Assembly (NCBI GenBank): GCA_016193285.1
Contig: JACPSL010000008.1
Span: forward strand, 1-64,000
Reading direction: 5' to 3'
From: Candidatus Melainabacteria bacterium
GTDB taxonomy: Bacteria > Cyanobacteriota > Vampirovibrionia > 2-02-FULL-35-15
Length of the DNA stretch: 64,000 nt
Position numbers and translations under genes: made by a program
Part shown: piece after piece, positions 243-27,763 of the stretch
Position numbering within the stretch: position 1 is the stretch's first letter
Layout: each line of letters opens with the position of its first letter
The notes under the pieces: generated by a model
Databases searched by the model: none
What the model was told of the DNA's origin: nothing
What the model saw: only the letters and a program-made list of their open reading frames with translations

Positions 243-2555
243 TTATTGTAGTAAAGCTTTTATCTTGTTTAAATTAATAGAGTTGTCTTTTGCATACTTA
301 AGAGCTTCTTGAGCATATGCTGTTGCAATTTGCAGATCGCCCTGTTTTAAATATAGGTATGCAAGTGTATAACTTATGTTAAATGAGAGTTGTAAATCTT
401 TTTGATTATTTTTAATAAGTGTGTAAGCTTGATTTAATTCTTGCAAGGCTTTATCTAGTTCATTCGTTTTTATGTAATAACTGCTTGATAGATAAAAAGT
501 ACGAGGGTCATTTTGGTCAAGTAGCATTAATTTTTTAATTATTTTTTTGGCAATATTAAGCTGATTTAATGTTAAAAATCCAACTAGTGCTTCATGATAA
601 TGAAATTTATTATGTGTTCGTAGTGCATATAAATAAGAATGTTTGGCATAGTCTGGTAAATTGTTTTCTCTCTGAAACAAACTTAAGGATTCAAATAATA
701 TTCTTTTTGAATATGGATATAGTTTCATTCCTTCTATTAAGTACTTTTTTGCTTTAGGTAAATTATTTTCTATATCTTTTTCAAATCTAATAAGCGAGAC
801 TAATATAAAAGGGCTTGTTGGGAATTTTTTATATGCGTATTCAAATATTTTTTTTGATTTCTTGACTTTGTTGTTCTTAATTAATAAATTTGCATAAAGT
901 TCAAGACTTTGAGGATCTAATTCATTTATATTATTAATGTGATCCTTAAAAAACTTAAGATAGTATTTATAATTATCGTTTTCTTCAAATGCTTTATAAC
1001 ATATATAATAAGCACTCTTAGCTATTAATGAATCAGGAGCTAATCCGTATGATTGTAGTATTAAAGGTATTTTAGAATATTTAATTTTCTCCTTCTTAAA
1101 TAATTTTATTGCTTTAAGAAAGTAATTGTACGAAGCCAGTGAGTATTTTTTTGCTTCACTTGTATTTTGAGGATCATTTTGTAAAATAATCTCAGGGAGT
1201 AGACTTGTACGAAGTCCTTTATATAATAAATTTGTACTGGTATTAATAGTTGAGTTTATTAGTGACTTGTTGTCTTTCCAGTCTTGTATTCTGAGGGTAG
1301 TTCTTATGGTAAGTAATAAAAGGCTTATAGACAAGAAAGCTATGAAACATTGTTTGTAAGGAAAGATTTTTGTAATCCAGTTGGTTATTAACTTCGTAAT
1401 GCAAAATATAATTATAAAGACGGGAGTATATAAATATCTTTCCGCGGCTAAGCAATATGTAGGTGTTAATATTTGACAGAAAGGAATAAGACTTATAAAA
1501 GATAAACCTGAAAATAACAATAAATTATGAGTATCTTTTTTGAACTTAAAAATTACAAATGGTACAAATAACCAGGAAAATAAGAATAACAAACAAAATA
1601 CAGCATATCCATCAAACAACCAGTTTCCTAATGTTATATGTGATGATTGATCTAATGAAAGCAATTCAGGGTAAAAAATTAAGCTTAAATAATGAATAAA
1701 AATCTGTGGAGATAACCAAAAGATTCTCTCAAGAAATAAAATCATAGGACTGGATGATGAAACCTGAAATGAATTAAATTGTGAAAACAGAATATATATT
1801 AAGAAAATACCAAGCCCTATAAAATAAGGTTTTGTTTCTGTAAATGTATCTTTAAGTGCAACTTGCCATTGACCTTTTGCTAACTTGTTTTCAATCAATG
1901 AGTATGTGAGTAAAATTAATGGCAAAGCAATAATATATTCATTTAATAACATTGGCATTAAAAAAAGAATTGATAAAAATAATGTTCTTGATTTTAGATA
2001 ATTCCTTTTTCTGTTTTTAATAAAGTCTAAAAACAAGCTGAAGAAAACTATATAGCTTAATGTTGCCCCAATATTTGTGGACAAAAGAATTGATTCAACA
2101 TGTACAGGATGTAACGCCCAGATTAACGTTATTAAAGTAGTGATAGAGACTGTGTATAAAGATCTTGTAGGAAAAATTGTTGAGATTATTAAATAAACAA
2201 TAACAGTATTAATTACATGAAATAGCAAATTTAGTACATGATATAAAAAAGGATTTAATTTAAAAAGATAACCAACAGTTAGTAAAAATGGTATACCAAG
2301 TAGATTACTTCTATTAACGGAGTTTGAAGTGTATAGAAAATTACTTGAGTTGAAGTTATTAACAAGGCCAAAATTATTTATTATTTCAAATATTTCAGTA
2401 AATGTTGTGGGAATTTGAGAAAAATCTTCATTATAAATAACTCTCTCATCATAAAAAACCCATGGACGACTCAAAGTAGGAATATAGATACTTAGCGCTG
2501 CTATTACACAAACAAGAAGTCCTATAATTAAACAATAATTGTTTTTCTTGTTCAT
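243..2555 (-). CDS. TMTC-like membrane glycosyltransferase with TPR tail, paralog 1
   Basis: A 770-residue polytopic membrane protein, last in transcription order of the tandem family. Residues 1-430 hold about ten hydrophobic segments. A short first external loop carries the Asp-Glu pair D36-E37 (FYDERVIYNE), as in GT-C enzymes of the PMT/TMTC type. Other family landmarks are HVINT, LIWALHPVHVESIL, LSPQIFIHY, LSLDQS, AERYLYTP and RIQDWKD. Residues about 440-770 are TPR-like helical pairs. TMTC proteins transfer mannose from a lipid-linked donor to Ser/Thr of exported proteins. By inference this one O-glycosylates secreted protein, but donor and acceptor are unknown. It starts 3 bases after the stop of the next paralog, so the two are probably cotranscribed. 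Confidence 0.75.
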   Translation of the reverse strand: MNKKNNYCLIIGLLVCVIAALSIYIPTLSRPWVFYDERVIYNEDFSQIPTTFTEIFEIINNFGLVNNFNSSNFLYTSNSVNRSNLLGIPFLLTVGYLFKLNPFLYHVLNLLFHVINTVIVYLIISTIFPTRSLYTVSITTLITLIWALHPVHVESILLSTNIGATLSYIVFFSLFLDFIKNRKRNYLKSRTLFLSILFLMPMLLNEYIIALPLILLTYSLIENKLAKGQWQVALKDTFTETKPYFIGLGIFLIYILFSQFNSFQVSSSSPMILFLERIFWLSPQIFIHYLSLIFYPELLSLDQSSHITLGNWLFDGYAVFCLLFLFSWLFVPFVIFKFKKDTHNLLLFSGLSFISLIPFCQILTPTYCLAAERYLYTPVFIIIFCITKLITNWITKIFPYKQCFIAFLSISLLLLTIRTTLRIQDWKDNKSLINSTINTSTNLLYKGLRTSLLPEIILQNDPQNTSEAKKYSLASYNYFLKAIKLFKKEKIKYSKIPLILQSYGLAPDSLIAKSAYYICYKAFEENDNYKYYLKFFKDHINNINELDPQSLELYANLLIKNNKVKKSKKIFEYAYKKFPTSPFILVSLIRFEKDIENNLPKAKKYLIEGMKLYPYSKRILFESLSLFQRENNLPDYAKHSYLYALRTHNKFHYHEALVGFLTLNQLNIAKKIIKKLMLLDQNDPRTFYLSSSYYIKTNELDKALQELNQAYTLIKNNQKDLQLSFNISYTLAYLYLKQGDLQIATAYAQEALKYAKDNSINLNKIKALLQ

Positions 2556-2558
2556 CTG

Positions 2559-4988
2559 TTATCCTGTATTATTCTGTAGATTGAAAATTTCTTTTATGCA
2601 ATAGTTAAAATATTCAGTCAGGTTTAATGATTTATATAATCTTGCAAGTTGATGAAGTGAATCAGAGTTTGTTCTAGCAAATCGTAAGGCGTCTTGTGAA
2701 AATCGAATTGCTTCGTCTTTATTTCCCAGATGAATGTACAATCTGCTTAATGCGTAAGTTATGCTGAAGGCTAACTTAGTATCTGAGCTTGAAATTGTAT
2801 TGTATGCTCTTAAAAGAAATTCTAGTGCTTTTTGAAGATCATTAACTTTATAATAATAATTACTTACAAGATATAAGGTTTGGGGATCTTGTGAGTCTAT
2901 TTTTAGAAGTTTGTTGACTGTTTTTTTTGCATTGCTAAGATCTCCTAAGTCTAGAAATATAGATAGTGCTTGGTTGTAAGCAAGTTTTGATTGGGCTCTT
3001 AGTCCATAGAGATATGCATACTTAGCTGTAAGGCTTGGTGAGTTAATTAATTGATAAAACTCTATTGCTTTTAATAAAACAGCTTTGTCGTAAGGATGGA
3101 ATTTTAATGCTTGCATTAGATACTTCTCTGCTTTTTCTTTGTTGTTTTCATATTTTATAAAGTAATCAATTAATCTAAGCAATGTAAAAGGAGTATTAGG
3201 GTAGGTTTCATTAGCTTTTAATAAAATTTTTTTTGCCAAGCCGTATTTCTTATCACTTATTAATAAATGTGCATAAAGTTCTGAGACTCTTGGCTCAGTT
3301 TTACCCATAATTTTTACATAAGGTTTTAGTAATTCTAGACCAATTTTGTAACCTTCATTTAATTCAAGACACCTTGACGAAGCTTCTAAAAAGGCAACTT
3401 TAGAAAGAAGGGAATCATAGTCTAGTCCATAGACTTTAATTACAAGAGGTAATTTTTCTTGGAATTTTATTCTTTCTTTTGTTAAGTTGTCCCTGGCTTC
3501 TCTTAGTAAATCCAGAGTTTGAAAAAAGTAATTTTTTATTTCTTCTTTTTTTTCTCCTTCAAATACAGCCATAGCTTTTCCAAGCATCCCAAGTCTCATG
3601 GCTTTAAATAATGGATTAGAACTCATTTTATATGAAGAATTTATAAAAGAATAATTATCTTTCCAGTCAAAAGTTCTATAGAGGGCTCTTGTAAAAAGTA
3701 AAATTAATATAACAGATAGTACTGTTGATATTGTTAATTGGAGTTGTTTGGTTTTTGTTAAATTGCTTAATGTTTTCCCTGCTCCTAGGACTAAGAACAT
3801 AATAGAGGTGTATAGGTACCTATCAGCTGCAAGAGTATATGATGGCATTAAGATATGAAGAAATGGCAGTAGAGCCAGAAAGAATGTCCAGGTTGTAAAA
3901 CATAAATTTTCGAGCTTTCTTTTTAAGATGTAAAAAGCTAATGGAATAAAAAGCCAACAAACCAGAAAAATGATACAAAACAATGAATATGGATCAAACA
4001 ATGTTTTCCCAAGGCTGACAAAGACAGTTTGATCAATAGAAAGCTTTAGGGGTAGAAATGTTACTTTCAGTAAGTGGAAAAATATTTGTGGTGAAAGCCA
4101 AAACACTCTTTCTAAAAAAACCACGAATTCATTTTCAGCTGCCAGGTGACTTGCTTGGTAATTGGTAGTAAAGAAAAAATATAATACATAACAAAGTAGA
4201 CCTATTAAGTATGGAGCAGTTTCTTGGAAAGCTTTTTTAAATGCAGCTTTTAGTGAACTTGTTTTATATGCTGAGTGTGTTGAGATAAAAAATAGGATTA
4301 CAGGAAGTGCAGCAATGTATTCATTTATAAGCATTGGAATGAAAAATATAATAGGAATGATTAATCTTCTTATAAAGGAAGTGTTCTTGTCTCTGTTTAG
4401 TAAAAAATCAAGGAGTAAGGAAAAAAAGAAAATGTAACTAAAAGTTGCTCCGCAGTTAATTGATAGTAATATTGATTCTGTAAGAGCGGGATGAGTAGCC
4501 CATATTAGGGTCAAAAGTATTACCGGTAGTCTACTAAGATTGTTTGTTGATTTAAAAGTTAATTTTAAGATATAAAATACAAGTACAGTGTTTATTAAAT
4601 GTAGAACCAGATTAAATATATGATATAAAACTGCTTCTTTCTTTAGGAAAAAGTTTATAAGCATTCCAAATATTTGGGCAAGCGGACATGTCCTAGTTAA
4701 GTAGTTTGAGCTATAAATTGTATTGGAAGAAAGCACATTAAAATTTAGACCAAAATTATTTATTATTTCAAATATTTCACCAAGTGATAATGGGGTTGCA
4801 AAGTATGTTCCATCTACAATTATTCTCTCGTCATACAAAAGCCATTCACGGTTTATAGTAGGGATATATAGGATACAAATTATAGTTAAACATATGAACA
4901 AGTCAATGTTAAGTGACCAAGACCAATTTTTTTTATGTTGCTTTGCTTGTTTACTTTTAGGCACAGTCTCCAATTTATTTTTTTCCAT
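2559..4988 (-). CDS. TMTC-like membrane glycosyltransferase with TPR tail, paralog 2
   Basis: An 809-residue member of the family. Its charged N-terminal extension (about 28 residues, many Lys) precedes the first membrane segment. The Asp-Glu pair is D53-E54 (LYDERIIVDG). Further matches are LIWATHPALTESILL, LSPQIFFHLLKV, LSIDQTVFV, LAADRYLYTS and RTFDWKDNYS. The C-terminal half is TPR-like and carries the family block VYGLDYDSLLSK and then YLYGLRAQS. It heads a two-gene unit with paralog 1 and is divergent from the hydrolase at 5016 with only 27 bases between starts, so the promoters must reach into coding sequence. Membrane O-glycosyltransferase is inferred from family landmarks. Confidence 0.75.
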   Translation of the reverse strand: MEKNKLETVPKSKQAKQHKKNWSWSLNIDLFICLTIICILYIPTINREWLLYDERIIVDGTYFATPLSLGEIFEIINNFGLNFNVLSSNTIYSSNYLTRTCPLAQIFGMLINFFLKKEAVLYHIFNLVLHLINTVLVFYILKLTFKSTNNLSRLPVILLTLIWATHPALTESILLSINCGATFSYIFFFSLLLDFLLNRDKNTSFIRRLIIPIIFFIPMLINEYIAALPVILFFISTHSAYKTSSLKAAFKKAFQETAPYLIGLLCYVLYFFFTTNYQASHLAAENEFVVFLERVFWLSPQIFFHLLKVTFLPLKLSIDQTVFVSLGKTLFDPYSLFCIIFLVCWLFIPLAFYILKRKLENLCFTTWTFFLALLPFLHILMPSYTLAADRYLYTSIMFLVLGAGKTLSNLTKTKQLQLTISTVLSVILILLFTRALYRTFDWKDNYSFINSSYKMSSNPLFKAMRLGMLGKAMAVFEGEKKEEIKNYFFQTLDLLREARDNLTKERIKFQEKLPLVIKVYGLDYDSLLSKVAFLEASSRCLELNEGYKIGLELLKPYVKIMGKTEPRVSELYAHLLISDKKYGLAKKILLKANETYPNTPFTLLRLIDYFIKYENNKEKAEKYLMQALKFHPYDKAVLLKAIEFYQLINSPSLTAKYAYLYGLRAQSKLAYNQALSIFLDLGDLSNAKKTVNKLLKIDSQDPQTLYLVSNYYYKVNDLQKALEFLLRAYNTISSSDTKLAFSITYALSRLYIHLGNKDEAIRFSQDALRFARTNSDSLHQLARLYKSLNLTEYFNYCIKEIFNLQNNTG

Positions 4989-5015
4989 GAATTTAAGTAT
5001 AATAGGCCAGTAGGT

Positions 5016-5840
5016 ATGAAAAGCTTGCTTATTATTAAAGGGCTTACAACATTAACTTTGTTTTTTTTACTTACGTTTGTTGTAACTAATCCTATAAGTG
5101 CTAAGGTAACTCATATTTTAATCCACACAGCAAAAGAGAATCTATCAACTGTTGGAGAACATAATAATAACAATAAGCCTGTAGATTTAGTGTTTTACTT
5201 AAATGGAGGAGGTTCTGCAGAAACACTTTTACTGGCAGATTTTCCATTTGGCGGGTTAAATATTCCTGATCTTAATAATGTATATAGAAAAGATTTAGTA
5301 TTTGTTAGTTTTGCATATGACCCACGATTTCATTGGTCAAATCCTGAAATAGTTAGAGATGTAGTTGAAAATATTCATGAAATATCAAGCAAATTTAATA
5401 CAAGAAAAATATTTATTGTAGGCATCTCTGTAGGAGGAGCCTTAGCATTAAATATTTTAAGTAATGCGGATCGGGATCTAAAAGATAAAATTACAAATGT
5501 GTTAGCGATGTTTCCAATTATTGATTATGATTATACTTTTTCTACAACAAAAAGAGAAAACATTTATACCTTGCTAAAAGAATATTTTGATAAGTTTGAA
5601 AACCCGAAAGAACAAATGAAGCTATCTTCTCCTGTAAACTACATAAGTGGCATTCCTAGCCATACTGAAATAACTCTTATAGAAGGTACAAATGATACTC
5701 ATATACCACCAGAACAAATTGAAGATTATTATAATAAACTAAAAGAACTTAAGAGAAATGTTAAACTTCTAAAGTTTAATACAGATCATTTATCACCAGG
5801 CAAAGAATTTGGAGAAGTAATTCAAGCTTTATTAAAATAG
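5016..5840 (+). CDS. Secreted alpha/beta hydrolase (esterase-like), copy 1
   Basis: 274 residues from the ATG at 5016, which follows AGTAGGT. This is preferred over an upstream in-frame start because it gives a clean signal peptide or signal anchor (MKSLLIIKG, a hydrophobic run, then NPISA). The nucleophile elbow GISVGGALAL, an acid in the EGTNDTHIP segment and a histidine in NTDHLSPG form a credible Ser-Asp-His triad. An early VDLVFYLNGGG strand-turn fits the oxyanion-hole region. It acts outside the cytoplasmic membrane; the substrate is unknown. The next gene is a close paralog. Both sit on the opposite strand inside the glycosyltransferase cluster, so a role in deacylating glycans, lipids or the surface layer is possible but unproven. 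Confidence 0.7.
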   Translation: MKSLLIIKGLTTLTLFFLLTFVVTNPISAKVTHILIHTAKENLSTVGEHNNNNKPVDLVFYLNGGGSAETLLLADFPFGGLNIPDLNNVYRKDLVFVSFAYDPRFHWSNPEIVRDVVENIHEISSKFNTRKIFIVGISVGGALALNILSNADRDLKDKITNVLAMFPIIDYDYTFSTTKRENIYTLLKEYFDKFENPKEQMKLSSPVNYISGIPSHTEITLIEGTNDTHIPPEQIEDYYNKLKELKRNVKLLKFNTDHLSPGKEFGEVIQALLK

Positions 5841-5851
5841 AATATTGAGTG

Positions 5852-6673
5852 ATGAAAAAAAAAGCTTTATTAATATTTTTTGGTCTTTTACTTCTGTTAA
5901 GTTTGGTTATGTTTCCTCCTTTTTGGAAACGATATCCATTAGAAGCAAAAATTATAAATGTTTTAATTCATACACCAATTGAAAGGCAATATCCTGCAAA
6001 TATAAATCAGCCTGTAGATTTAGTTTTTTATTTTCAAGGAGCTGGTAATGATGAATCTCTTCTGCTTGGTCCATATGATTTAGGTGGTTTTTTTCTTTCT
6101 ATGCTGGGAGATATTTATAGAAAAGATTTGGTGTTTGTAAGTTTTGGCTACGATACTTATTGGTTATGGCCATCTCCTAAGTTAATTAATGAGACATTAC
6201 AAGAGGTCCATACCATAGTAAATAAATTTAATACTAGAAGGATTAAATTTGCAGGAGTATCTTTAGGTGGCTCAGTAGCTTTAAATTTGTTAAGTCAGGC
6301 AGATCAAAATATTAAATCTAAAGTTTCTGAAGTACTAGCAATATTTCCTATTACTGATTTTAAATATAATTTCTTAAATACAAAAAGAGACAATGTTAAA
6401 TCCTTATTTAAAAAACATTTCTTTAAGTTTAAAGACCCCTATGAACAGATGAGACTTTCATCACCACTAAGCTATATAAATGGAATCCCTGATGATGCAA
6501 AAATAACATTAGTTGAAGGTGCTTTAGATACCCATGTACCAAAAGAGCAAATTGAGTTTTATTTTAATAAACTAAAAACTTTAAACAAACAAGTAAAACT
6601 TGTTACATTTAATAGTGATCATAAACCAGTAGAACAAGACTTTTTAAATCTTATTAAAGCATTTCTTAAATAG
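5852..6673 (+). CDS. Secreted alpha/beta hydrolase (esterase-like), copy 2
   Basis: 273 residues from the ATG at 5852; a GTG sits one codon earlier. It is clearly a duplicate of the preceding hydrolase: the same VDLVFYFQGAG, YRKDLVFVSFGYD, RIKFAGVSLGGSVALNLLS, SSPLSYINGIPDDAKITLVEGALDTHVP and FNSDHKP landmarks appear in order. A basic N-terminus and hydrophobic helix suggest export or membrane anchoring. It starts 11 bases after copy 1, so the two form an operon. Its 3' end overlaps the convergent paralog-3 glycosyltransferase by 8 bases. The substrate is unknown. Confidence 0.7.
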   Translation: MKKKALLIFFGLLLLLSLVMFPPFWKRYPLEAKIINVLIHTPIERQYPANINQPVDLVFYFQGAGNDESLLLGPYDLGGFFLSMLGDIYRKDLVFVSFGYDTYWLWPSPKLINETLQEVHTIVNKFNTRRIKFAGVSLGGSVALNLLSQADQNIKSKVSEVLAIFPITDFKYNFLNTKRDNVKSLFKKHFFKFKDPYEQMRLSSPLSYINGIPDDAKITLVEGALDTHVPKEQIEFYFNKLKTLNKQVKLVTFNSDHKPVEQDFLNLIKAFLK

Positions 6674-8759
6674 AATTATTTTCTATTAGTTCAATATTTT
6701 TTAGTGATTTTTCAATCATCTCTTTATCATTGAGTTTTGTGTATATGTTGTATGCATTATATAAACTCTCCAATGAATGCATCCTTATTCCAAGTAAATA
6801 TGAATAATAAGCAAATTCTCTGGCTTTGTTTGTTTCCAGATAAAATCTTTTAAGGCCTGACAGGGTTTGTAAATCGTACGGGAAATACTTAAAAGATTTT
6901 TTTAAACTTTCTTCAGCAGATTTATAATCATTGTATTTTGCTTTATAAAGCTCTGAATAAATAACTAATAAGGTCGGACTAAGTTTTTTCTCTAAGGCAT
7001 GTTTTAATATCGTTTCTACTTTATCATAACTTTTCCTTGCAAAAAGAAGCCCTAGATATAAATCAAGTATTTGAGTATCAGTAATTTGTAGATTGCTTAG
7101 ATATTTGTCAATTATTTTAAAGGCTAAGTCTGAATCTTTTAAAAGTCCTATTTTGGTAAATGCTAACAGATAGGCTGCTTTAGCCTGCAAGGTCTTAGGA
7201 TCTAAACCGTAGGATTTTATAACTTCTGGTATTGAGTTTCCAAATTGTTTATCTATAGCCTTTTGCTCTTTAATATATTCTTCAAGCAAATTAATTGATT
7301 TATTTATATAGTTTTTTCCTGTTTGTTGAGATTCTTCATCTTTATAATAATCAAGTAAGATGCTTCCAAGAAATTCATATCTAATAGCTTTGAACAAGTT
7401 GTTGGGTGCTGTATTTAGAGCAGATGTGAATAATGAGACACTATTTTCCCAGTCAAGTGTTCTTGTATAGCTTTTAATGCTTAGTGGAATCAGTAGAAAT
7501 ATTGAAGCAATGGTAAGAATTATTATTTGCTTATGTGTAATTCTTGATATTAAATAAAATACAAAATGTGATATGCCAAACATGAGCATGAACATGGGGA
7601 AATATAAATATCTTTCACTAGCTATGCAGTAAGAAGGTGAGAGTATGTGTAAAAAAGGAGAAATTGTAATTGAAAAATAGAACAAAGTGCTAAACATTAA
7701 GTAAAATATTTTCTTTTTACAAAAGAAGAGTGACAGCAATAAAATGATTATTATAGTAAGAAATAAAGTACTACAGAATATTGAATATGAAGAGAACAAA
7801 GTTTTTGAAAAAGAAACCATTGCTGTTTGGTCTATTGAAAGATTTAGCGGAAAGAAAATTAATTTTATGAGATGAAAAAATATTTGAGGAGAAAGCCAAA
7901 AGAATCTTTGAATCGTTTCATGTAGATAAAGCGAATTTGTTAAGTGCAAATTTGACTTGGTTGGTGATGATAAAAAGAAAATAATAAATAATCCTAATGA
8001 AATGAGCAGTGGTAATGTTTCTACGAAGGTACTGTATAAAGACTGGTTGATGTTTTTAGTTCTATAGATAGTGTTTGTAAGCAGATAAAAAAATATTACT
8101 GGCGCTAAAGTTACTGAGTATTCTGAATTAAATAAAGGAATTAAACTGAGTATAAAAACAGTTATAAACTTTACGACCGGATTTATCTTATTGTTTTCTA
8201 GTCCAAAATTAACAAAATAAAATATAAGGATTGTACAGAGGCTATAGGTTAATATTGCAGACCAATTACATGCAAATAGTATTGATTCGATATTTGCAGG
8301 ATGTAATGACCACATTAGTGTGAGTATTGATGTTAAAAGTAGTCGTAAAGACTGGAATTGATTTTGATTATTTATAAATGTAATTGAGATTTTTTTTATT
8401 ATTAAAAAAAGCAAGGCAGTATTAAAGAGGTGCAGAAAGAGTGAAAGGAGATGATATAAAAAGTATGATTTTTTAAAAATTAGGTAAACAAAAAGAGTAA
8501 TAAAATTATTAACAGGATCACATCTTAGATTTGAGACTGATGAATAAAATGGATTTGAAGCTTCAAAAAAATTATTAATTCCAAAATGTCTTAGATATTC
8601 AATGAGTTGTGAAAAAGAATATGGTACAGGTAACACCGTTTCGTTATATATAATTTGTTCATCAAAATGTTTCCAGGGATAACCTAATGTATGAGCATAG
8701 AATAAAAAGACAATTATTAGTGTAGTTAAAAGAAAAAAGTAAGTCCTTATTTTTTGCAT
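6666..8759 (-). CDS. TMTC-like membrane glycosyltransferase with TPR tail, paralog 3
   Basis: 697 residues. The Asp-Glu pair is D33-E34 in WKHFDEQIIYNE. Family landmarks run in order: YHLLSLFLHLFNTALL, LMWSLHPANIESIL, FFWLSPQIFFHLIKL, LSIDQTAMV, IASERYLYFP, and the conserved Arg/Asp/Trp of RTLDWEN. The C-terminal helical-repeat half has SYGLDPKTLQAKAAYLL and LLGIRMHS. It is shorter than paralogs 1, 2 and 7 because it has fewer C-terminal repeats. It resembles paralog 4 most closely (shared PWKHxDE and NFFEAxNPFYS segments), which suggests a recent duplication. It follows paralog 4 by 14 bases on the same strand. Confidence 0.75.
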   Translation of the reverse strand: MQKIRTYFFLLTTLIIVFLFYAHTLGYPWKHFDEQIIYNETVLPVPYSFSQLIEYLRHFGINNFFEASNPFYSSVSNLRCDPVNNFITLFVYLIFKKSYFLYHLLSLFLHLFNTALLFLIIKKISITFINNQNQFQSLRLLLTSILTLMWSLHPANIESILFACNWSAILTYSLCTILIFYFVNFGLENNKINPVVKFITVFILSLIPLFNSEYSVTLAPVIFFYLLTNTIYRTKNINQSLYSTFVETLPLLISLGLFIIFFLSSPTKSNLHLTNSLYLHETIQRFFWLSPQIFFHLIKLIFFPLNLSIDQTAMVSFSKTLFSSYSIFCSTLFLTIIIILLLSLFFCKKKIFYLMFSTLFYFSITISPFLHILSPSYCIASERYLYFPMFMLMFGISHFVFYLISRITHKQIIILTIASIFLLIPLSIKSYTRTLDWENSVSLFTSALNTAPNNLFKAIRYEFLGSILLDYYKDEESQQTGKNYINKSINLLEEYIKEQKAIDKQFGNSIPEVIKSYGLDPKTLQAKAAYLLAFTKIGLLKDSDLAFKIIDKYLSNLQITDTQILDLYLGLLFARKSYDKVETILKHALEKKLSPTLLVIYSELYKAKYNDYKSAEESLKKSFKYFPYDLQTLSGLKRFYLETNKAREFAYYSYLLGIRMHSLESLYNAYNIYTKLNDKEMIEKSLKNIELIENNSI

Positions 8760-8773
8760 AGCTAAATTATAAA

Positions 8774-10900: not shown

Positions 10901-10901
10901 A

Positions 10902-13004: not shown

Positions 13005-13044
13005 CAGCTTACGTTCAGTTTTGATTTTAATGATTCAATATATT

Positions 13045-15135
13045 TTATATTTTTTTTTGATGAAAATATTTGCTGAGCAAAAGTAATGTTATTACATTGC
13101 CTTTATCTAAAGTCAATAATTTATCAATAATGAACTTTGCTTCATTAGGCCTATTTAAAAAGAGATATATTTGAGCAGCTCTCTGATAGGCAACTTGTGA
13201 ATGAGTCCTAAGCCCTAATAAGTATTCATATTTAGCTAGATTCAACTGATCATTTTTTAATTCACAAAGTTTTATCATTCTAAGTAGCATTCTTTTATTT
13301 GATGGATATAAGAGATAACCTTCACTGATAATTCTTTCAGCATTAATTATGTCCTTATTCTTTAAGTATAAATTACTTAGAGTGTAAATTAAAAAGGGAC
13401 TTGTAGGATACCTTTTTCTTGCAGACTCTAAAATATTAATTGCTTTTTTCTCTTGACTAGTGGCAATTAACAGTTTTGAGTATAAATTGAGCTGTGAATT
13501 GCCAGTACTTTCTAAGCTTTGATTTAAATAAGGCTCATAGAAATCTAAAATTTCTTGTGGTGATTCTTTAAAATCTTCAAATTTTATTGAAGCAATGGTA
13601 AAAGCAGCAGTGGTTATTAATGACTCTCTATCTAAGCCATAGAGTTTCAATATGTTTGAAACCCTTCCATTTTTATTAGTGTCTAATTCTGCAATAGCAT
13701 CTTTTAAGTATTTTATGCTTAACTTCATGTGTTTGTTCATTTTTTTCTTATCTATTGAGGTAAAGTAATAACCAAGAACTGAATGTACCTGCCCTTTATA
13801 CAATTTTTTTTCACTAGCGTGTAGAGCAGAGTTATATAAGGTGTAAGAGTCTTTCCAATCAAGGATTCTATAGGTAGTTCTAATACCAAAAATTAAAATA
13901 ATAACAGAAAAAATCAAAATGATGACTTTATTTTGTTTTGATATTAGTTGACAAACAGTTAAGAGCAAAATAAACAATGGAAAATAACAATATCTCTCTG
14001 CTATTAAGCAGTAGCCTGGAGAAATGATTTGTAAGAATGGAAAGAGTGAAAAGAGTAAACCATAAACGAAAATGACAGGAATGAATCTTCTATTTAGGAA
14101 CACTAAAGCAGCTGGAAAGGCAATGAGCAAAATAAGTAAGGAAAGAGCAAGAATAGGGTAAAAAGAAGATAGCTCTAATAAAATTGACTGAAATATAGAA
14201 AGTGCTTTAGGGAAGAAAAATAACTTTATAAAGTGTAAAAAAATCTGTGGTGAAATCCATAAGATTCTTTCAAGTGAAGTGCTAAATGAACCTTGACTTA
14301 AATAACTTTCTATGCCAAGTGTAAAAGCTCTGAAAATATAGTAAGAAACAAATAATACTAGTCCAAGTATATATGGAAATACTAACTCTAGAGAAGAAAC
14401 AAATGCTTTTCTTGCTGAACTTTGCTTAGGACAGATCAATGCTAGTGAAATAAAAAACAATATTGCAAAAATGATATAGCAATATTCGCTGATAAGCATG
14501 GCTATAAAAGAAAGTAGAGTAAGTAATGTTCCTTCCTTTATAGAGTTTTTGTAACTTCCATTTTCTATTTTTGTTATGATATGTAGTAAGAAACTAAAGC
14601 AGAACGTATATGTAAAAAGTGAAGGCCAATTAGTTACAAGTAATACTGTTTCAACATTAGCTGGGTGTAATGCCCACAGTAGGGAGAGAAAAGTTGCTGT
14701 AAAAGAACATATTGAAGAGTTCAAATTTTTAAGTTTGAGTAGTTTATATAGAATTAACCAGGCAAATAATGTATTAGTTAAGTGAATTAAAACTTGAAGT
14801 ATATGGTAAAAAAAATTATTTTTATTAAATAAGTAAGAAATAATGATATTTAATATTGCTCCAAATAAATTTGAGCGCAAAGTAATAATATTTGAAAACA
14901 ATGCATTCTGTGAGTCAAGGTTATAAGTAAAGGTATAAGTTTTTATTATTTCAAATAAATCGTGCAGGCTATGTGGGACAGGAAAAAGTCCTTCATTATA
15001 GACAATTCTTTCATCAAAATATTGCCAATCTCTTTTTAGTGATAAAGAATATATTAAAAATACAATTGCTACTGCTAAGGTACAAAACCAATTAGGCTTT
15101 ACTTTATTTAATTCCAAGTTTAGTTTTGAACTCAT
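13045..15135 (-). CDS. TMTC-like membrane glycosyltransferase with TPR tail, paralog 6
   Basis: 696 residues with D41-E42 in WQYFDERIVYNE. Landmarks are FYHILQVLIHLTNTLFAW, LLWALHPANVETVLLVTNW, ILWISPQIFLHFIKLFFFP, a divergent LSIFQSILL in place of LSxDQS, LIAERYCYFP and RILDWKDSY. The helical C-terminal half has LYGLDRESLITTAA and YLLGLRTHS. The start lies inside the end of paralog 7: 32 bases overlap, so the pair is probably translationally coupled. It shares AERYCYFP-type and NW segments with paralog 7, its closest relative. Confidence 0.75.
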   Translation of the reverse strand: MSSKLNLELNKVKPNWFCTLAVAIVFLIYSLSLKRDWQYFDERIVYNEGLFPVPHSLHDLFEIIKTYTFTYNLDSQNALFSNIITLRSNLFGAILNIIISYLFNKNNFFYHILQVLIHLTNTLFAWLILYKLLKLKNLNSSICSFTATFLSLLWALHPANVETVLLVTNWPSLFTYTFCFSFLLHIITKIENGSYKNSIKEGTLLTLLSFIAMLISEYCYIIFAILFFISLALICPKQSSARKAFVSSLELVFPYILGLVLFVSYYIFRAFTLGIESYLSQGSFSTSLERILWISPQIFLHFIKLFFFPKALSIFQSILLELSSFYPILALSLLILLIAFPAALVFLNRRFIPVIFVYGLLFSLFPFLQIISPGYCLIAERYCYFPLFILLLTVCQLISKQNKVIILIFSVIILIFGIRTTYRILDWKDSYTLYNSALHASEKKLYKGQVHSVLGYYFTSIDKKKMNKHMKLSIKYLKDAIAELDTNKNGRVSNILKLYGLDRESLITTAAFTIASIKFEDFKESPQEILDFYEPYLNQSLESTGNSQLNLYSKLLIATSQEKKAINILESARKRYPTSPFLIYTLSNLYLKNKDIINAERIISEGYLLYPSNKRMLLRMIKLCELKNDQLNLAKYEYLLGLRTHSQVAYQRAAQIYLFLNRPNEAKFIIDKLLTLDKGNVITLLLLSKYFHQKKI

Positions 15136-17575
15136 TAATTTTATTTTTATCCTCAGTAGTTAAGTCTTTCATTGCCTGAAACTCTTTTAAGTATTTTTTG
15201 GAATCATCAAGTTTTCCTACATGAGAGTTTACGTTTATTAAACTTAGTAAAATACTTTTAGTAACAGTTGGATCAGTATTTTTTTGGCTTTTTGCAAGAA
15301 AATATGCACTGGTTAAAGTTTGTAAGATATTCTCTCTCTTTCCTACTAAATCAAGATATCTACTTGTAAGTAAAAAAGTTATAGGATCAGCATTTCTTAG
15401 TCTTGCAAGCTTTTTTAATGCTTTATATGCAAGAGGTAGTTGGTTTAGATCTAGATAAATCTGAACTGCTCTTTGATAGCTTGATGCTGAGTGCTCCCTA
15501 AGTCCTAAAAGATAAGCAAACTTTGCTTGGTTTGGAAGATCATTTGTTTTTTCATAATATTTAAAAAGCTTATAAAGTGTTAGTACATTGTTTGGATAAA
15601 GCTTGTAAGCTCTTTGAAGAAGCTGTAGAGATTTATCGAGATTGTTTTCATAAAGTAAATAGTAATCTGCTAATGAATATATTACTGATGATGAATACGG
15701 ATATTTTTTATATGCATACTCTAAAATCTCTTTTGCTTTGTTCTGGTTATTTGTCTTAGAAAGTAAATCTGCATATAAGTTGAACTGATTCACACTTGCA
15801 AGGTGCAGCTTATTTTTTATAAATTTTTCAAAGTATTTAAGTGTTTTTTCTGCTGGTTCCTGAAAGTTGTCATGTTTAATTGTTGCAATTCCATATGCAG
15901 CTTTCATAAGGAGTGTATCGTAGTCCAAGCCGTATAGTTTTAATGTAATTGGTTGTCGTGGATATTTCTTTCTTAGTTTTTTTAATTCTTTAATTGATGT
16001 TTTAAGTTTAGTAAAAGCTTCGTTTAAAGATTTTTCCATTTGTAGTTGATTACCCATTGCACCAATGTAATCTGCAAATATTATTAATCTTTGCCCTTTA
16101 TACAATGGATTTTTTTCAACTTTTAGTGCTGATTGATATAAGGAGTATGAATTATTCCATTCTTGACTTCTGACTAATGTTCTAATTCCTAATAAAACTA
16201 GTACACAAGATAAAGTTATGGTGATATGTTTTGAATTATAAGAGACTTGGTTTTTTATTTTGAGAAAAAGTATAGAAAAAAGTATTAAAAATAGTACTGA
16301 AGAAGGGAAATAACAATATCTGTCTGCAGCCAAGCAATAAGTAGGAAGAATTACATGCAAAAATGGAAAAACCGAAAAGAAAAAAGCATAGATTAAAGGA
16401 CAGATAAAAGAGCCCCTTGTTTTTCTAAAAATTAAAAATAGAATTATCGGTGAGGTTAAAAACAAGAAATATATAGCCATACAAAGTATTGAGATTGGTT
16501 CTATTAAAGTTTTTGCTAGTGGAATTAGGTTTGATTGATATGTCGAAAGAGTAATCGGGAAAAACAATATTTTCAATAAATGAGTAAAAATTTGTGGAAC
16601 AAGCCATAAATTTCTTTCAGTAAAAACATTAAAAGCATAAAGAAAGGAAGAAGAGTTATTACTTCCGGGGAAGTTAGCTTGAAATATATTTACTAAAGGA
16701 GAATCCTCCTTACTTAAGGAAGTAATGATGTAAAAAATTATTCCTAAAAAATATGGATTTGTTTTTTTTACTGAAATCAAAAGAGCACTTTTTATGTCGT
16801 TTAGATTTTTGTAAGTGAATGAGAAAATAATGAAAAATAAGATTAAAGGTAGTGTATAAGCATACTCGGTAAAGAGCATGGTAAGAAAAAAAAGTATACT
16901 AATACCAAAAGTACTAAGCTTTGAAACGGTAAATCTGTTGCTTTCAATTAGTGAAACTTCATAGAGAATAAAACTAAAACAAAAAGTATATGTCAGCAAA
17001 GTATCCCAATTTGTTACAAGAAGAATTGCTTCAGTATTAGCACTGTGTAAGCTCCATAATAAGGTAAACAAAGAGACAAATAAATAACTGGTTTTAGAAG
17101 GGATTTCTTGTGCAATTAATTTTGCAATCTTCTTGAATATAAACCATACTAAAATTACATTTAAAAGATGTATGCTCAGTTGAAGAAGGTGATATAAGAA
17201 AGCGTTCTTTTTTAAGAAGAAAGATGTTATTAGAACCAGGATTGAAGCTAATGTATTGGAGCGTACTGTGAGATTATTTGAAAAAAAGGTATTGGTTGAC
17301 TCTATATGATAGTTTAATACAAATGATTTTATAAGCTCACTAATTTCGTCGAGTCTTGTAGGTATAGGGAATATTGTTTCATTATAGAAGACCCTTTCAT
17401 CAAAAGCTTGCCATTCTCTAAATAAAGAAAAGAAGTAAATAAATAAAGTGATAGCTATGGTAGAAAGAAGATAAATTGAATTTGTTAGATTTAAGGCTTT
17501 CCTCTTTTTGTTATTGAGAAGTTCTTTTTTTGTAAGTGATTTAGATTTTATTTGTTGCACTTTTACTAAAGACAC
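15104..17575 (-). CDS. TMTC-like membrane glycosyltransferase with TPR tail, paralog 7 (first in transcription order)
   Basis: The largest copy, 823 residues, starting with GTG at 17575; the overlapping ATG is in another frame. A Lys-rich cytoplasmic N-terminus of about 30 residues precedes the first membrane segment. The Asp-Glu pair is D59-E60 (WQAFDERVFYNE). Landmarks are YHLLQLSIHLLNVILVW, LLWSLHSANTEAILLVTNW, LWLVPQIFTHLLKI, LSTYQS, LAADRYCYFP and RSQEWNNSY, then LYGLDYDTLLMKAA and YLLGLREHS. The long TPR tail ends in a charged helix. It faces the divergent 401-base region shared with the giant secreted-protein gene, so its promoter should lie there. Confidence 0.75.
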   Translation of the reverse strand: MSLVKVQQIKSKSLTKKELLNNKKRKALNLTNSIYLLSTIAITLFIYFFSLFREWQAFDERVFYNETIFPIPTRLDEISELIKSFVLNYHIESTNTFFSNNLTVRSNTLASILVLITSFFLKKNAFLYHLLQLSIHLLNVILVWFIFKKIAKLIAQEIPSKTSYLFVSLFTLLWSLHSANTEAILLVTNWDTLLTYTFCFSFILYEVSLIESNRFTVSKLSTFGISILFFLTMLFTEYAYTLPLILFFIIFSFTYKNLNDIKSALLISVKKTNPYFLGIIFYIITSLSKEDSPLVNIFQANFPGSNNSSSFLYAFNVFTERNLWLVPQIFTHLLKILFFPITLSTYQSNLIPLAKTLIEPISILCMAIYFLFLTSPIILFLIFRKTRGSFICPLIYAFFFSVFPFLHVILPTYCLAADRYCYFPSSVLFLILFSILFLKIKNQVSYNSKHITITLSCVLVLLGIRTLVRSQEWNNSYSLYQSALKVEKNPLYKGQRLIIFADYIGAMGNQLQMEKSLNEAFTKLKTSIKELKKLRKKYPRQPITLKLYGLDYDTLLMKAAYGIATIKHDNFQEPAEKTLKYFEKFIKNKLHLASVNQFNLYADLLSKTNNQNKAKEILEYAYKKYPYSSSVIYSLADYYLLYENNLDKSLQLLQRAYKLYPNNVLTLYKLFKYYEKTNDLPNQAKFAYLLGLREHSASSYQRAVQIYLDLNQLPLAYKALKKLARLRNADPITFLLTSRYLDLVGKRENILQTLTSAYFLAKSQKNTDPTVTKSILLSLINVNSHVGKLDDSKKYLKEFQAMKDLTTEDKNKINEFKTKLGIK

Positions 17576-17607
17576 ATTAATTTTAAAACATTAGATTTTT
17601 TTGAACT

Positions 17608-17636
17608 TTGACAAATTGTTTTGAGCGGTATATCTT
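17608..17636 (+). promoter_or_regulatory. Sigma-70/SigA-type promoter for the giant secreted protein
   Basis: A perfect -35 TTGACA at 17608-17613 and a -10-like TATCTT at 17631-17636 are separated by exactly 17 bases. Initiation would be near 17643, giving a leader of about 330 bases before the ATG at 17977. It is inferred from consensus match and spacing only. Confidence 0.55.
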
Positions 17637-17642
17637 TTTTCA

Positions 17643-17660
17643 TTTAGGATTTCTCCTAAA
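17643..17660 (+). promoter_or_regulatory. 5'-terminal mRNA hairpin of the surface-protein transcript
   Basis: A perfect 7-bp stem (TTTAGGA / TCCTAAA) with a four-base loop falls where the predicted transcript would begin. A hairpin at the extreme 5' end, combined with a long leader, is a known way to stabilise abundant outer-surface mRNAs. That role is inferred here. Confidence 0.45.
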
Positions 17661-17976
17661 AGTTCTCAAAATAATATAACCCAAGTTTTTAGGAAGATTT
17701 TTTGAATCTTGAAATTCCACAAGGCATTGGCTGAAACTATTAACCCAATATAAACCGGTAATACTTTTTTGTATAAATATTTTGTGTTAAGAGGAACTTT
17801 ATGATTGTGTTTAAGTTCAAACAGACTGGTGTATTCTTAACCCTGGTGTAATTAGGTTTAAAAATTTTTGAGGTTTGATACTTAAGAATTTCAAAAATGT
17901 TTTGGCCTGAATACGAAGTTATGTATAAGTTAAGAAATTTAATTCAAAGTAAAGAAAAAAAAAGGAGTAGAAATTA

Positions 17977-20900
17977 ATGAAATTGATTTCATCGAAAAGG
18001 ACTAAGCGTAGAATTGCGCTCATGTTTGTTTTCGCGTTTGTGTTTTCAAATTTACTGTCGCTTGTTGGGCCAAGTGCTCAAGCAGCGATAACTACTACTG
18101 CACCTACAGCAGGTACTTGTTTTCAACATTCAGGTACTACTTCAACTGGTGCATTAGTGACGGTATATAACATTGGTACGATACAAATCACGCTAACAGC
18201 TGCTGAACTTTCACCAGCACAGGACGCCGCACCTTCAGGATCAGCAAATGGTGCAACTGCAAATGCAACTACAGGAGGCGACATCTCGGCAGCTAGTAAT
18301 GTTACAGGTAATGTATTTTCATTTGTTCCACCTACTGGTACAAACTTTGTTGTAGTTCCAGGCTTCCAGGATACAACAGCTGGAAATTCAAATGAAATAC
18401 TTCCTGCAAATGCGACAATTTCAAATGCACTATCAAGCGACAATACAACTGGTACGCCAGATAGCAACCTAGCAATTAGTGTAGGTGTTGTAACTACTGG
18501 TACAGCAGGAATTGGGAGAGCAATTGTTGCAATTGCAAGAGATGGTGATACTACTGGTGGTGCAGGTGTTGAAACATATCCTAAAACAAATACGGGCAGT
18601 AACACAGCTACCATTTCAATTACAGGTTTAGGTATTGCAGTTCCACCATCTGGAGATGTTTCTCTGAGTGGGACACTGACAGCAACTATTGAGGCAAATC
18701 CACCATCAGGAATTGGTGCAATAGCTACAACGACTACAGCTGGTGGTGCAGGGACAACAACAGCAGCAGCAGCAATACCAGGTATTTCCGGAACGATTAA
18801 TTTATGTACAATAACATCACCAGCAGGACAGCTTGAAGCTGTATTAGATGCTGATGATGACTCGACAGATTTATACGATAAACATGCAGCAAGTGCAAAT
18901 CTAGTAGCATTAGGTCAGGTAGGTGCAAATACAACAGTAAATGTATTTGATACTACAACCTCTGCTGCAGGAGCTTCACTTGACTTAGAACCCATCTTAA
19001 TTCGTGGTACAGCAGGGACTGGTTCTTCTACTAAAGACCAGGTGTTTGCAACAGGTGAATTATTAAGTGATATTGATTCAGCAGCAGAAGTGCCGTCTGG
19101 ATCAGCGCTTGACTTAACTGCTACATTTGGTAACTCAGTGGCAGCGCCTATTACTGTTACATTCTCGGATGATAATGCTGCAGCAACTACTACACTTAGT
19201 GCAGTAGATATCATTCTTAGTAGTTCAACTCCAGGAGCTGCTCCATCAGCAGCAGGACATGCAGCAGGACAAACTTCAAGACATGGTTATCTTGGTGCAC
19301 TTAGAGCAGCGCTATTTGATTCAGCAACTAGCTCTGTATCAACTGCTGCTTTTGCAGCTGGTGGTACATGGGGAATTGCATCAGTAACAGGTGGCCCTGG
19401 TCTTGCAGTACAAGAGTCAAGAATTGCAGGTACTACTGATACAAATGGTGCTAATTTATTAACGGGCTCTTTTGGTAATGGTAATGTACCTGGTACATTA
19501 GCTGCAGAACCATATAATCCAGCGTTTGTTGACTTACACCTCTATTGTGGAACTAGCACAAATCCAGTTGCTGGGTGGTTTGCAATTGTAAGTAGCGCAG
19601 TCAATGCAGCTGGTACTGCAGTTGACTTTGGAACAACTACCAGCTCACAACAAAGACTTGCTGCTTCACAAGCTGGGACAAGGTTCCTTGTTAGCAGTGC
19701 AACAAACTTCTTTACTCAATCACTGACGAATATCTTTGGTACTACTCCAGGAGCAACAACTACAAACCCGACCTTCCTGGCTGGTGGTATTCTTGGTACA
19801 ACAATGGTGGCTGACTCACAAACTCTTGATAATGCCATCTTATATGCGTCTTGTACCAATAACACTTTGACAATCTTACCGATACAAAATGGCTTTGATG
19901 CTACAAGAGATATTATTGCAATCACTCCAAGATTAGCTGTAACTAATGTCAGCAATACTTTCAGTTCAGATGTAAACCTTATTGCTCAAGTATCTGGTAA
20001 CAACTTAATAGGAACAACCACGTTAAATCTTGCTAAGTTAGTTGGTGTACCAGCAACTGGACAAACTAGTATACTTGCATCTGCTCAGGGTGTGGCAGTA
20101 TCAGAAAGCAGCCAGCTTGGGATTAGCTGTTCAAGTGGCGGACAGTCAAGTGTAGTATTAAGCGCAATTACAAGTGGAACAGTTGATACAGCTGTAATGA
20201 GTGCTTGTTCAGGAGGTACTATAGCTCCAGCTCCAGCATTCTTTACTGGTGGTGCTAGTAGTAGTGTTTCTGGTACTACAGTAATTGCTGGTTCTCCAAC
20301 TGTTCAAGGCGAATCAAGAGGTATCTTGGTTAGTGAACTTAATGCTACCGGGTTTAGTGAACTGCTTAATCAGGTTGGTGGAGGAAGTCAAGGTACTGTA
20401 TTTGAAGTGCAACTTCCTAGTGGTTGTGATGTCATTGATGATAGAGATGACAACAATACAGCATCATCCTCATCAGCTACAGCAGGCTCACTTGGCGGTA
20501 ATGACGTTGCACGATATACAATAACTCAAACAGGTGGTGTGACAGCTACATTTGCAGCAAGTGGTACTGGTGATGCAGCAATCACAAATGCAAACGTAGT
20601 AGTTCCAGCAGCGGGTACTACACCAGCTAAGTTGCACTTTGGAATTGTATCAGCTCTTGGTACAGGTACAGATGCAGTGACAACTGATGCGGTCTTAATA
20701 AGAATTGATGCTCAAGACTTGTTCTGTCCTATTGCAGTTACTGGCAATCTTGAAGCATCAGTAATTGCACAAAACAAAGTCAACAGCCCAAGCATTGTTG
20801 CTAATCTTGGCAAGGCCATGCTTGGTGCAGCAACACAAGCGCTAGGCTTTGCATTTGCTGATGATGTTGCTACCTCAACTAAAGGTGAAACATCTACCAA

Positions 20901-22095
20901 TGCGATGATTGGTGCAACGCCAAGGTTATCTACTGGTGGAGTAACAACTTCACATCCAGTTAAGATTACTGAGCTTGATGCAAGAGCAATTCCAATTGGC
21001 GGGAGAGTATCTCCACGTAATTTGGACCCAGAAAATTCCTTGCTTTCAACAGTATTGTCAAGAGGTCAAATCTGGTTAATCCCAGCCGCAGGTACTGCAT
21101 TCTCTGCTGCTCCAGCAACAGCTGATGTCAGCTTCTCGGATGACTCGCTTGTAATTGATGGGACACCAACACTTGTTACAAGTGCCACAGTAGATCCAAA
21201 TCCACCGATTGGTACTGTAGTAATAGGTGTCAAGAAAAATACAGCAAGTGGTGCTGCTAATCCAATGGAATCGACTACGACAATTACAGTGAAGAATCTT
21301 AAGTTTACTGCTGCAAGCAGTACTACGACTGATCTCATTGCATCTGCTGTGTTCTTTGTACAAGATGCTGGTATAGTTGTTAATACTCCAGGAGCTGCAT
21401 CTGGAAATAATGCATCGACTCCAACAGTATTCACACCATATGTACAAGCTTCGGCAAAAGCACTTACTCAGCTTGAAGCCGCAGGTGTTCAACTTGGAAC
21501 TGGTAGCTTAGCAAATCAATTGCTTACTTCCAGGCTAACAGCGCAAAGTACTCCACAAATAAATCCATTTGCTAAGGTAGTAACCTCAGCAATGAATGCA
21601 GATGCAAGCAAGATCACAGTATCTTCACTAGCAGCAACTGCATCCTCAAGTGGAGCTGCTACTACTGATATTGTTGTTACTGTAACAGGTACAGCAGGAG
21701 CAGTAGATGGTGGTGCTGAAGTTGTAGTAACAACTGGTGGCACAACCACATATGATTCAGTTACAGTAGTGGCCTCAGAAGACGGCTCATTTACTGCAAA
21801 ACTTAGAGGTGATTGTGCAGCTTCAGCAACAAGCGTATCAGTTTCTGTAGCTGAATCAGTTAGTGGAACTAAGACTACCTCAGTAACGAAGACAGCTCTT
21901 TGTGCTGGCGGTGGTGGTGGCCAAACTGCTGATGACGTGTTCAACGCAATAGCAGGATCAGATGGTTCAGTAACTTTGTCAGAACTGACAACTTACATCA
22001 CAGCTCAAGGTGGTCTTGGAGCAATTATTACTTCAGGTGGTTCAAAACTACAAGGCGTAATTAAAGCTGCCAAGTCTGCACTTGGTCTAAGCTAA
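17977..22095 (+). CDS. Giant secreted Ala/Thr/Ser/Gly-rich surface protein (S-layer-like)
   Basis: 1372 residues behind an AAAGGAG ribosome site. Residues 1-36 form a long Sec signal peptide (basic MKLISSKRTKRR, then a hydrophobic stretch ending in SAQA). The mature part is dominated by Ala, Thr, Ser, Gly and Val, with few Lys, almost no Trp and scattered Cys pairs, as in S-layer or adhesin-like proteins. No SLH domain or LPXTG motif is visible. A pentaglycine-like linker (GGGGG) precedes a C-terminal segment of about 55 residues with a degenerate EF-hand/dockerin-like stretch (GSDGSVTLSEL). Very high Thr/Ser makes it a natural acceptor for the O-glycosyltransferase-like cluster divergent from it. 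Function is inferred from composition and context; no family is recognised. Confidence 0.7.
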   Translation: MKLISSKRTKRRIALMFVFAFVFSNLLSLVGPSAQAAITTTAPTAGTCFQHSGTTSTGALVTVYNIGTIQITLTAAELSPAQDAAPSGSANGATANATTGGDISAASNVTGNVFSFVPPTGTNFVVVPGFQDTTAGNSNEILPANATISNALSSDNTTGTPDSNLAISVGVVTTGTAGIGRAIVAIARDGDTTGGAGVETYPKTNTGSNTATISITGLGIAVPPSGDVSLSGTLTATIEANPPSGIGAIATTTTAGGAGTTTAAAAIPGISGTINLCTITSPAGQLEAVLDADDDSTDLYDKHAASANLVALGQVGANTTVNVFDTTTSAAGASLDLEPILIRGTAGTGSSTKDQVFATGELLSDIDSAAEVPSGSALDLTATFGNSVAAPITVTFSDDNAAATTTLSAVDIILSSSTPGAAPSAAGHAAGQTSRHGYLGALRAALFDSATSSVSTAAFAAGGTWGIASVTGGPGLAVQESRIAGTTDTNGANLLTGSFGNGNVPGTLAAEPYNPAFVDLHLYCGTSTNPVAGWFAIVSSAVNAAGTAVDFGTTTSSQQRLAASQAGTRFLVSSATNFFTQSLTNIFGTTPGATTTNPTFLAGGILGTTMVADSQTLDNAILYASCTNNTLTILPIQNGFDATRDIIAITPRLAVTNVSNTFSSDVNLIAQVSGNNLIGTTTLNLAKLVGVPATGQTSILASAQGVAVSESSQLGISCSSGGQSSVVLSAITSGTVDTAVMSACSGGTIAPAPAFFTGGASSSVSGTTVIAGSPTVQGESRGILVSELNATGFSELLNQVGGGSQGTVFEVQLPSGCDVIDDRDDNNTASSSSATAGSLGGNDVARYTITQTGGVTATFAASGTGDAAITNANVVVPAAGTTPAKLHFGIVSALGTGTDAVTTDAVLIRIDAQDLFCPIAVTGNLEASVIAQNKVNSPSIVANLGKAMLGAATQALGFAFADDVATSTKGETSTNAMIGATPRLSTGGVTTSHPVKITELDARAIPIGGRVSPRNLDPENSLLSTVLSRGQIWLIPAAGTAFSAAPATADVSFSDDSLVIDGTPTLVTSATVDPNPPIGTVVIGVKKNTASGAANPMESTTTITVKNLKFTAASSTTTDLIASAVFFVQDAGIVVNTPGAASGNNASTPTVFTPYVQASAKALTQLEAAGVQLGTGSLANQLLTSRLTAQSTPQINPFAKVVTSAMNADASKITVSSLAATASSSGAATTDIVVTVTGTAGAVDGGAEVVVTTGGTTTYDSVTVVASEDGSFTAKLRGDCAASATSVSVSVAESVSGTKTTSVTKTALCAGGGGGQTADDVFNAIAGSDGSVTLSELTTYITAQGGLGAIITSGGSKLQGVIKAAKSALGLS

Positions 22096-22135: not shown

Positions 22136-22264
22136 TCTTTTAAATTAAATTAATTTTTATAGTTCTATAGAAAAAAATAATAAGTCAATAAAGAAATAAG
22201 CTATAGGGAATCAAGGAGTCATTTAGAGTTTTAAAGGTTATTGGAAAGGGTGGAGGAAAATAAA

Positions 22265-27750: not shown

Positions 27751-27763
27751 CTGATTCTCCAAC

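Follow-up and report, generated by a model that had tools for sequence, protein, structure and literature searches.

The stretch analysed here, referred to below as the window, comprises the first 64,000 nucleotides of contig C8 in the genome (1.81 Mb, 96% complete) of a Candidatus Melainabacteria bacterium placed in a Melainabacteria/Caenarcaniphilales family. Between positions 243 and 17575 the window carries an array of seven paralogous open reading frames (ORFs) of 696-823 amino acids, all on the minus strand, which lies head to head with the gene of a giant secreted protein rich in Ala, Thr, Ser and Gly (17977..22095, plus strand, 1372 amino acids). With a probability of roughly 60%, the array is a system dedicated to O-glycosylating the giant protein and its neighbours from polyprenyl-phosphate sugars, in which isoenzymes share the work. 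The nearest relatives of the host are metagenome-assembled genomes (MAGs) named Candidatus Melainabacteria or Candidatus Caenarcanales, several of which are labelled groundwater; genomes, contigs and loci are cited below as G, C and L numbers.

In the proposed mechanism, each enzyme would take a single sugar, possibly a 6-deoxyhexose, from a polyprenyl-phosphate carrier at the outer face of the inner membrane, with the Asp-Glu pair of the first extracytoplasmic loop as the putative catalytic or metal site and the conserved Arg/Tyr blocks holding the lipid phosphate. The sugar would then be passed to Ser/Thr residues of secreted proteins leaving the Sec channel, which would be recognised by the tetratricopeptide repeat (TPR) tail of the enzyme. 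The divergently encoded 1372-residue protein is the presumed main acceptor and an adjacent secreted protein of 468 residues a second candidate, and the seven enzyme types may divide the labour over sites or domains, much as human TMTC1-4 do over the strands of cadherins.

Predicted fold and active site of the array proteins

Counted outward from the giant gene, the seven minus-strand genes represent type A (15104..17575, 823 amino acids), B (13045..15135, 696), C (10902..13004, 700), D (8774..10900, 708), E (6666..8759, 697), F (2559..4988, 809) and, at the distal array end and 242 bases from the contig end, G (243..2555, 770). As the window begins at base 1 of the contig, further array copies to the left of position 243 are possible; outside the array the host genome holds only four further relatives, which are more distant.

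Over the whole length, identity to the type-C copy is 30-38%, and the sequence blocks noticed by the first-pass annotation, namely an early Asp-Glu pair, HPxxxE, an LSxDQS-like (LS-x-x-Q) and an ERYLY-like ((E/D)RY(L/C)Y) block, indeed fall into one common register in all seven. Type A carries variants of them, with HSxxxE replacing HPxxxE and, in all ten typed type-A proteins, LSTYQS, where Tyr stands for the Asp of types C-G in the LSxDQ block, together with the Asp in DRYCY. Across 63 homologs D34, E161, E218, R289, R386, Y387, Y389 and W438 are invariant. The acidic site of the first loop, on which the enzymatic interpretation had been made to depend, is thus retained throughout the homologs, as D34 is present in 63 of 63 and residue 35 is acidic in 62 of 63. 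Given these invariant Asp, Glu, Arg, Tyr and Trp residues, the array copies look catalytically alive.

The membrane domain was modelled separately because TPR proteins dominated the fold matches of the full-length model. The model of type-C residues 1-466, built on 59 family members, has a mean predicted local distance difference test (pLDDT) score of 93, and its Foldseek matches near probability 1 are enzymes of the glycosyltransferase C (GT-C) fold, CeDPY19, PglB, STT3 in the translocon-oligosaccharyltransferase complex and ALG3 (entries 7zlh, 6gxc, 8b6l and 9s6r), with ArnT (5f15) at a probability of 0.85 and EmbB also among the matches. According to the model, the array proteins are GT-C enzymes with a TPR-like tail, the fold that the first-pass annotation had led one to expect. 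A TPR-like tail had been ascribed to every copy; TPR profiles score above the curated cut-off in four of the seven (genes at 243, 2559, 13045 and 15104), whereas the tails of the other three are marginal or without match. The AlphaFold model of the whole type-C protein (10902-13004) adds a fifth tail of the same helical-repeat kind, with TPR proteins as its Foldseek matches.

Kinship to the TMTC and PMT families, also proposed beforehand, emerges from profile-profile comparison but not from direct matches to the Pfam profiles. A Pfam/NCBIfam scan of the seven proteins returned essentially TPRs only, the PMT families PF02366/PF13231 had no match in them at E up to 0.1, and a PDB sequence search found nearly exclusively TPR proteins with the family profile and nothing with the membrane domain alone. 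On the other hand, hhalign aligned the seven proteins to bacterial TMTC/PMT_2-type proteins with 99.9% probability and an E of 1e-33 over the membrane domain and the tail, matching DE/DD, HPxxxE, LSxDQ/LSxDY and ERYLYLP/DRFLYLP in register. In this profile-profile alignment the P-x-x-LS-x-D-Q block takes the place of DUF1736 between transmembrane segments TM7 and TM8, so that the DUF1736 segment looks homologous but diverged. The comparison set on which the TMTC kinship rests consists of bacterial TMTC/PMT_2-annotated proteins. Bridging relatives occur in Acidobacteria, Desulfarculaceae and Elusimicrobia. Against PMT_2 (cut-off 26) L031 reaches 34 bits, and against TMTC_DUF1736 (cut-off 27) L025 reaches a sub-threshold 23.7 bits.

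Array types and the linked secreted protein

The family sample comprised 11 genomes from 8 genera, of which ten carry 5-13 matches to the array profile, with arrays of 4-12 copies; G010 gave no array-profile match, and its contig ends inside the giant gene. In a maximum-likelihood tree the array proteins form seven well-supported groups (A-G) with one window gene in each, and the seven window copies are, on this phylogeny, seven ancient orthologous types common to other genera. Between genomes, members of one type average 49% identity in the membrane domain (47% in the tail), members of different types 35% (29%). The tail length is type-typical (e.g. 245-254 residues in C and 241-249 in E), and tandem duplications are confined to within types.

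Read outward from the giant gene, the window and G007 share the order A B C D E F G, whereas G009 has AAABCCDDEFFG and G002 AABCCDDEFG. In G001, AABCCDE and an incomplete F precede a contig break, and the following contig resumes with an incomplete F, then F and G. G004 reads ABCDE followed by an F-like start up to a stretch of N; the fragment in G008 holds C D E F F. The array of G003 consists only of C D D F, its third gene being D in the tree and E by BLAST. No order-breaking array was encountered among the family genomes read, and type A adjoins the giant gene in eight of nine genomes. As diverged types stayed next to one another while the family radiated, different roles can be argued for them, and the earlier suggestion that each copy may provide a different position or sugar is indirectly supported by the seven ancient orthologous types.

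The constant linkage of array and giant gene anticipated by the first-pass annotation extends to all nine testable genomes, where array and giant ortholog are arranged head to head, with a gap of 401-491 bases in the seven genomes measured. The giant protein is present in all 11 family genomes, in two as fragments only, and is 59-74% identical across the family where complete. The rest of the 194-genome class sample yielded a single weak partial match, and the protein appears virtually family-specific. Its description as secreted and rich in Ala, Thr, Ser and Gly was accurate, as it possesses a Sec-type signal sequence and contains 25% Ser+Thr and 26% Ala+Gly. N-glycosylation sequons number 10 in 1372 residues in the host and 11-21 in relatives; with so few, an N-glycosylation design is not obvious. 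Scans of the giant protein found no S-layer domain, and no PDB or family match supports a cohesin-like or S-layer identity of the protein and its neighbours. At the C-terminus (window 21940-22095), which is possibly an anchoring or calcium-binding module, an EF-hand-like stretch (DGDGDGSFTVDE in G005) precedes a conserved KAALGLS-like end in which LGLS is invariant. The C-terminal half is also found in a paralog of 698 amino acids encoded on contig C38. In G004 a further giant-protein gene (L104:3428-7360) lies about 22 kb away, not beside the array and without the conserved ribosome-binding stretch described below; an open frame of 25102 residues in the same genome lacks any residue composition, is taken to be N and was rejected as a giant gene.

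The giant gene is followed on the plus strand by the genes of a second secreted Thr/Ser-rich protein (22241..23647, 468 amino acids), the possible further acceptor, and of a third secreted protein (23727..24593, 288 amino acids), orthologs of which occur in the same succession in the relatives examined. The 468-residue protein has a weak TIG/IPT match near its C-terminus (17.3 bits, below cut-off). The human O-mannosyltransferase TMEM260 acts on IPT domains (PMC11292533), and the match is treated as a lead only. The presumed acceptors gave no match to cadherin-type Pfam domains.

Between the array and the giant gene (17576-17976) lie two inverted repeats which look regulatory, each in a single copy in the window. 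The conserved TTAGGATTTCTCCTAA (TTAGGA-N4-TCCTAA, 17644..17659) does not keep its exact form everywhere, being degenerate in some genomes and undetected in the short G006 fragment. GAACTT-N13-AAGTTC (17794..17818) forms part of a longer stretch that is conserved among the genera compared. Directly before the start codon of the giant gene, the plus-strand ribosome-binding stretch AAGGAGTAGAAATTA (17962..17976, 15 bases) is identical in nine family genomes, the seven aligned as well as G005 and G006. Sites resembling promoters are no commoner in the array region than expected by chance.

The seven paralogs had initially been described as adjacent, on one strand and in one operon. Paralogy and strand are confirmed, but the array is split between types E and F, the fifth and sixth copies from the giant gene, by two plus-strand genes (4935..6673) for secreted alpha/beta-hydrolases of the prolyl-oligopeptidase/BD-FAE type with hydrophobic N-termini (4935-5840, 301 amino acids; 5849-6673, 274 amino acids). 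As these genes interrupt the array on the other strand, the seven genes cannot form a single operon in the host genome. The hydrolase pair is absent from that place in relatives with a readable E/F junction, and homologs are found elsewhere in the host genome, on contig C29. A second, independent array insertion is seen in G002, where a gene for a LamG-type lectin-domain protein lies on the opposite strand between F and G (L065:10244-11638).

Sugar donor and alternative functions of the array

Beyond the distal end of the array, relatives encode one to three DUF2298-like membrane proteins of 730-785 residues, one of which passes the DUF2298 cut-off, and then a radical S-adenosylmethionine (SAM)/SPASM protein, a TIGR00374 flippase-like protein, a methyltransferase and homologs of RmlA and RmlB; in most relatives the block includes a diverged GT-C/TPR relative. 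DUF2298-like proteins stand beside radical SAM/SPASM and flippase-like genes at L074:10471-17433 and L061/L062. In the host genome the far-end block is located on contig C29, with RmlA and RmlB proteins above the NCBIfam cut-offs. This contig, which also bears distant GT-C relatives, encodes, though not beside the array, a GtrB/PgfS-like polyprenyl-phosphate glycosyltransferase (C29:40609-41586) that matches 5eke/5ekp and scores below the PgfS equivalog cut-off. With this gene and the C29 block, parts for a polyprenyl-phosphate-sugar system are therefore present. In relatives, the array is linked to sugar-nucleotide genes for the synthesis of deoxythymidine diphosphate (dTDP)-glucose and dTDP-4-keto-6-deoxyglucose, not of a mannose donor. 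Because of this linkage of RmlA/RmlB homologs a 6-deoxyhexose is proposed, and a deoxyhexose would be no less plausible than mannose as the transferred sugar.

The same setting can be read differently, in that the enzymes, each adding one sugar in sequence outside the membrane, would assemble a polysaccharide of the surface or a lipid-linked glycan, with the giant gene a mere neighbour or encoding a glycan-binding layer. GT-C enzymes using polyprenyl-phosphate donors make glycans too, as ArnT, EmbB and ALG3 among the fold matches illustrate, polysaccharide-type genes are found on both flanks of the locus, and seven ordered types would fit seven successive steps. Downstream of the three secreted proteins, for instance, the window encodes a DegT-type sugar aminotransferase (24715..25845, plus strand), syntenic in most relatives and not seen here in G002, and a FlaA1/PseB-type nucleotide-sugar 4,6-dehydratase with an N-terminal membrane region (25825..27762, minus strand), likewise syntenic. 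However, the closest annotated families found (TMTC, PMT_2) are those of protein O-mannosyltransferase-like enzymes, TPR tails typically serve to bind proteins, and the constant neighbour is a Thr/Ser-rich secreted protein which shares a conserved intergenic region with the array, so that glycan assembly is considered unlikely.

With a still lower likelihood, the array proteins could be non-enzymatic, GT-C-derived and membrane-anchored TPR scaffolds or chaperones for secretion or assembly of the giant protein. Such a role would agree with the TPR tails and the constant link to one secreted protein, and the exact array group has no assayed homolog, but scaffolds would need none of the acidic site, the HPxxxE Glu and the Arg/Tyr blocks that are invariant or nearly so in 63 homologs of seven types. 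That the array is a dosage or variation device of one recently amplified gene with redundant copies, as the tandem layout, the copy number varying among genomes and recent within-type duplicates (e.g. C and D in G002, D in G009) might suggest, is highly improbable, since the seven window copies are ancient types that occur in other genera too, closer to their orthologs than to their neighbours, and recent amplification of these copies is ruled out by the tree.

Several results weigh against a dedicated O-glycosylation system. Neither acceptor nor sugar nor activity has been observed, and all three, like the division of labour, are inferred. The Foldseek E-values are modest (best 4e-3) and the TM-scores low (0.3-0.4). 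DUF1736 (PF08409) had no match in the window proteins or the host genome, for which reason the proteins are called TMTC-like rather than TMTC; it had none across 117 genomes of the phylum either, though there the controls were silent too. The codon usage of the giant gene gives no sign of high expression (rank 111 of 133). G003, with C, D, D and F alone, still has the giant gene, and the full set is therefore not indispensable, while the fixed gene order can be explained by vertical descent alone.

Comparison with known systems

The closest counterparts in sequence are bacterial TMTC/PMT_2-like TPR proteins (loci L025-L037; Acidobacteria, Desulfarculaceae, Elusimicrobia and others), which share the domain plan, the motif register and whole-length homology with the array proteins at about 20-30% identity. 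In nine genomes from other groups, TMTC-like proteins are dispersed singly or in close pairs and form no long arrays. Within the same class, members of other families (G018, G037 and G074) possess four tandem or near-tandem relatives of the array domain, which are far more distant (E about 1e-15 to 1e-54) and fewer in number. These four-gene sets, at L105 (G018), L107 (G037) and G074:C120, come from two other families, and no giant gene is present near those of G018 and G037 in the neighbourhoods read. Arrays of 7-12 genes tied to one surface gene were seen in the family of the host alone; the array is thus unusually large, as first remarked, across the bacteria sampled, but with 4-12 copies being the range of the family it is ordinary there. 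The literature searched yielded nothing relevant on the array, an S-layer or a glycosylated coat in the host lineage.

Among characterised bacterial systems, the actinobacterial Pmt enzymes (GT39) are likewise of the GT-C type and O-mannosylate exported proteins, with related enzymes differing in acceptor choice (PMC11727336). Unlike Pmt, the array proteins lack a PF02366/PF13231 match, have a TPR tail and occur as many paralogs. In Streptococcus mutans, the four-gene pgf operon (PgfS, PgfM1, PgfE, PgfM2) modifies surface proteins including the adhesin Cnm (PMC5856776). A homolog of the PgfS-type glycosyltransferase is encoded in the host genome, whereas the seven-enzyme array is linked to a different, apparently family-specific protein.

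In architecture, the array proteins resemble human TMTC1-4 (CAZy GT105), which combine an N-terminal GT-C domain, an acidic first extracytoplasmic loop and a C-terminal TPR domain (motifs and catalytic loops analysed in PMC7801869). TMTC1-4 place O-mannose on two beta-strands of cadherin domains, several isoenzymes thus serving one acceptor class, and their specificity has been attributed by proposal to the TPRs as acceptor recruiters (PMC11292533). In contrast to TMTC1-4, the array is bacterial, PF08409 is undetected, the genes form one ordered tandem array, and the presumed acceptor is a Thr/Ser-rich bacterial secreted protein without a detectable cadherin domain. Tentatively, and with rather less confidence than is placed in a dedicated glycosylation system as such, the locus might be regarded as a bacterial counterpart of the TMTC1-4/cadherin pair, with TPR-specialised isoenzymes each responsible for a different site or domain of one surface protein. 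A single locus would then hold a multi-site glycosylation programme plus its acceptor and would suggest that a non-photosynthetic sister lineage of the cyanobacteria bears a glycosylated surface coat. How TMTC-type enzymes select their sites is not settled for the human ones either, the part played by the TPRs being a proposal (PMC11292533). With seven naturally diverged isoenzymes next to the presumed acceptor, specificity could be read from natural gains and losses such as those in G003.

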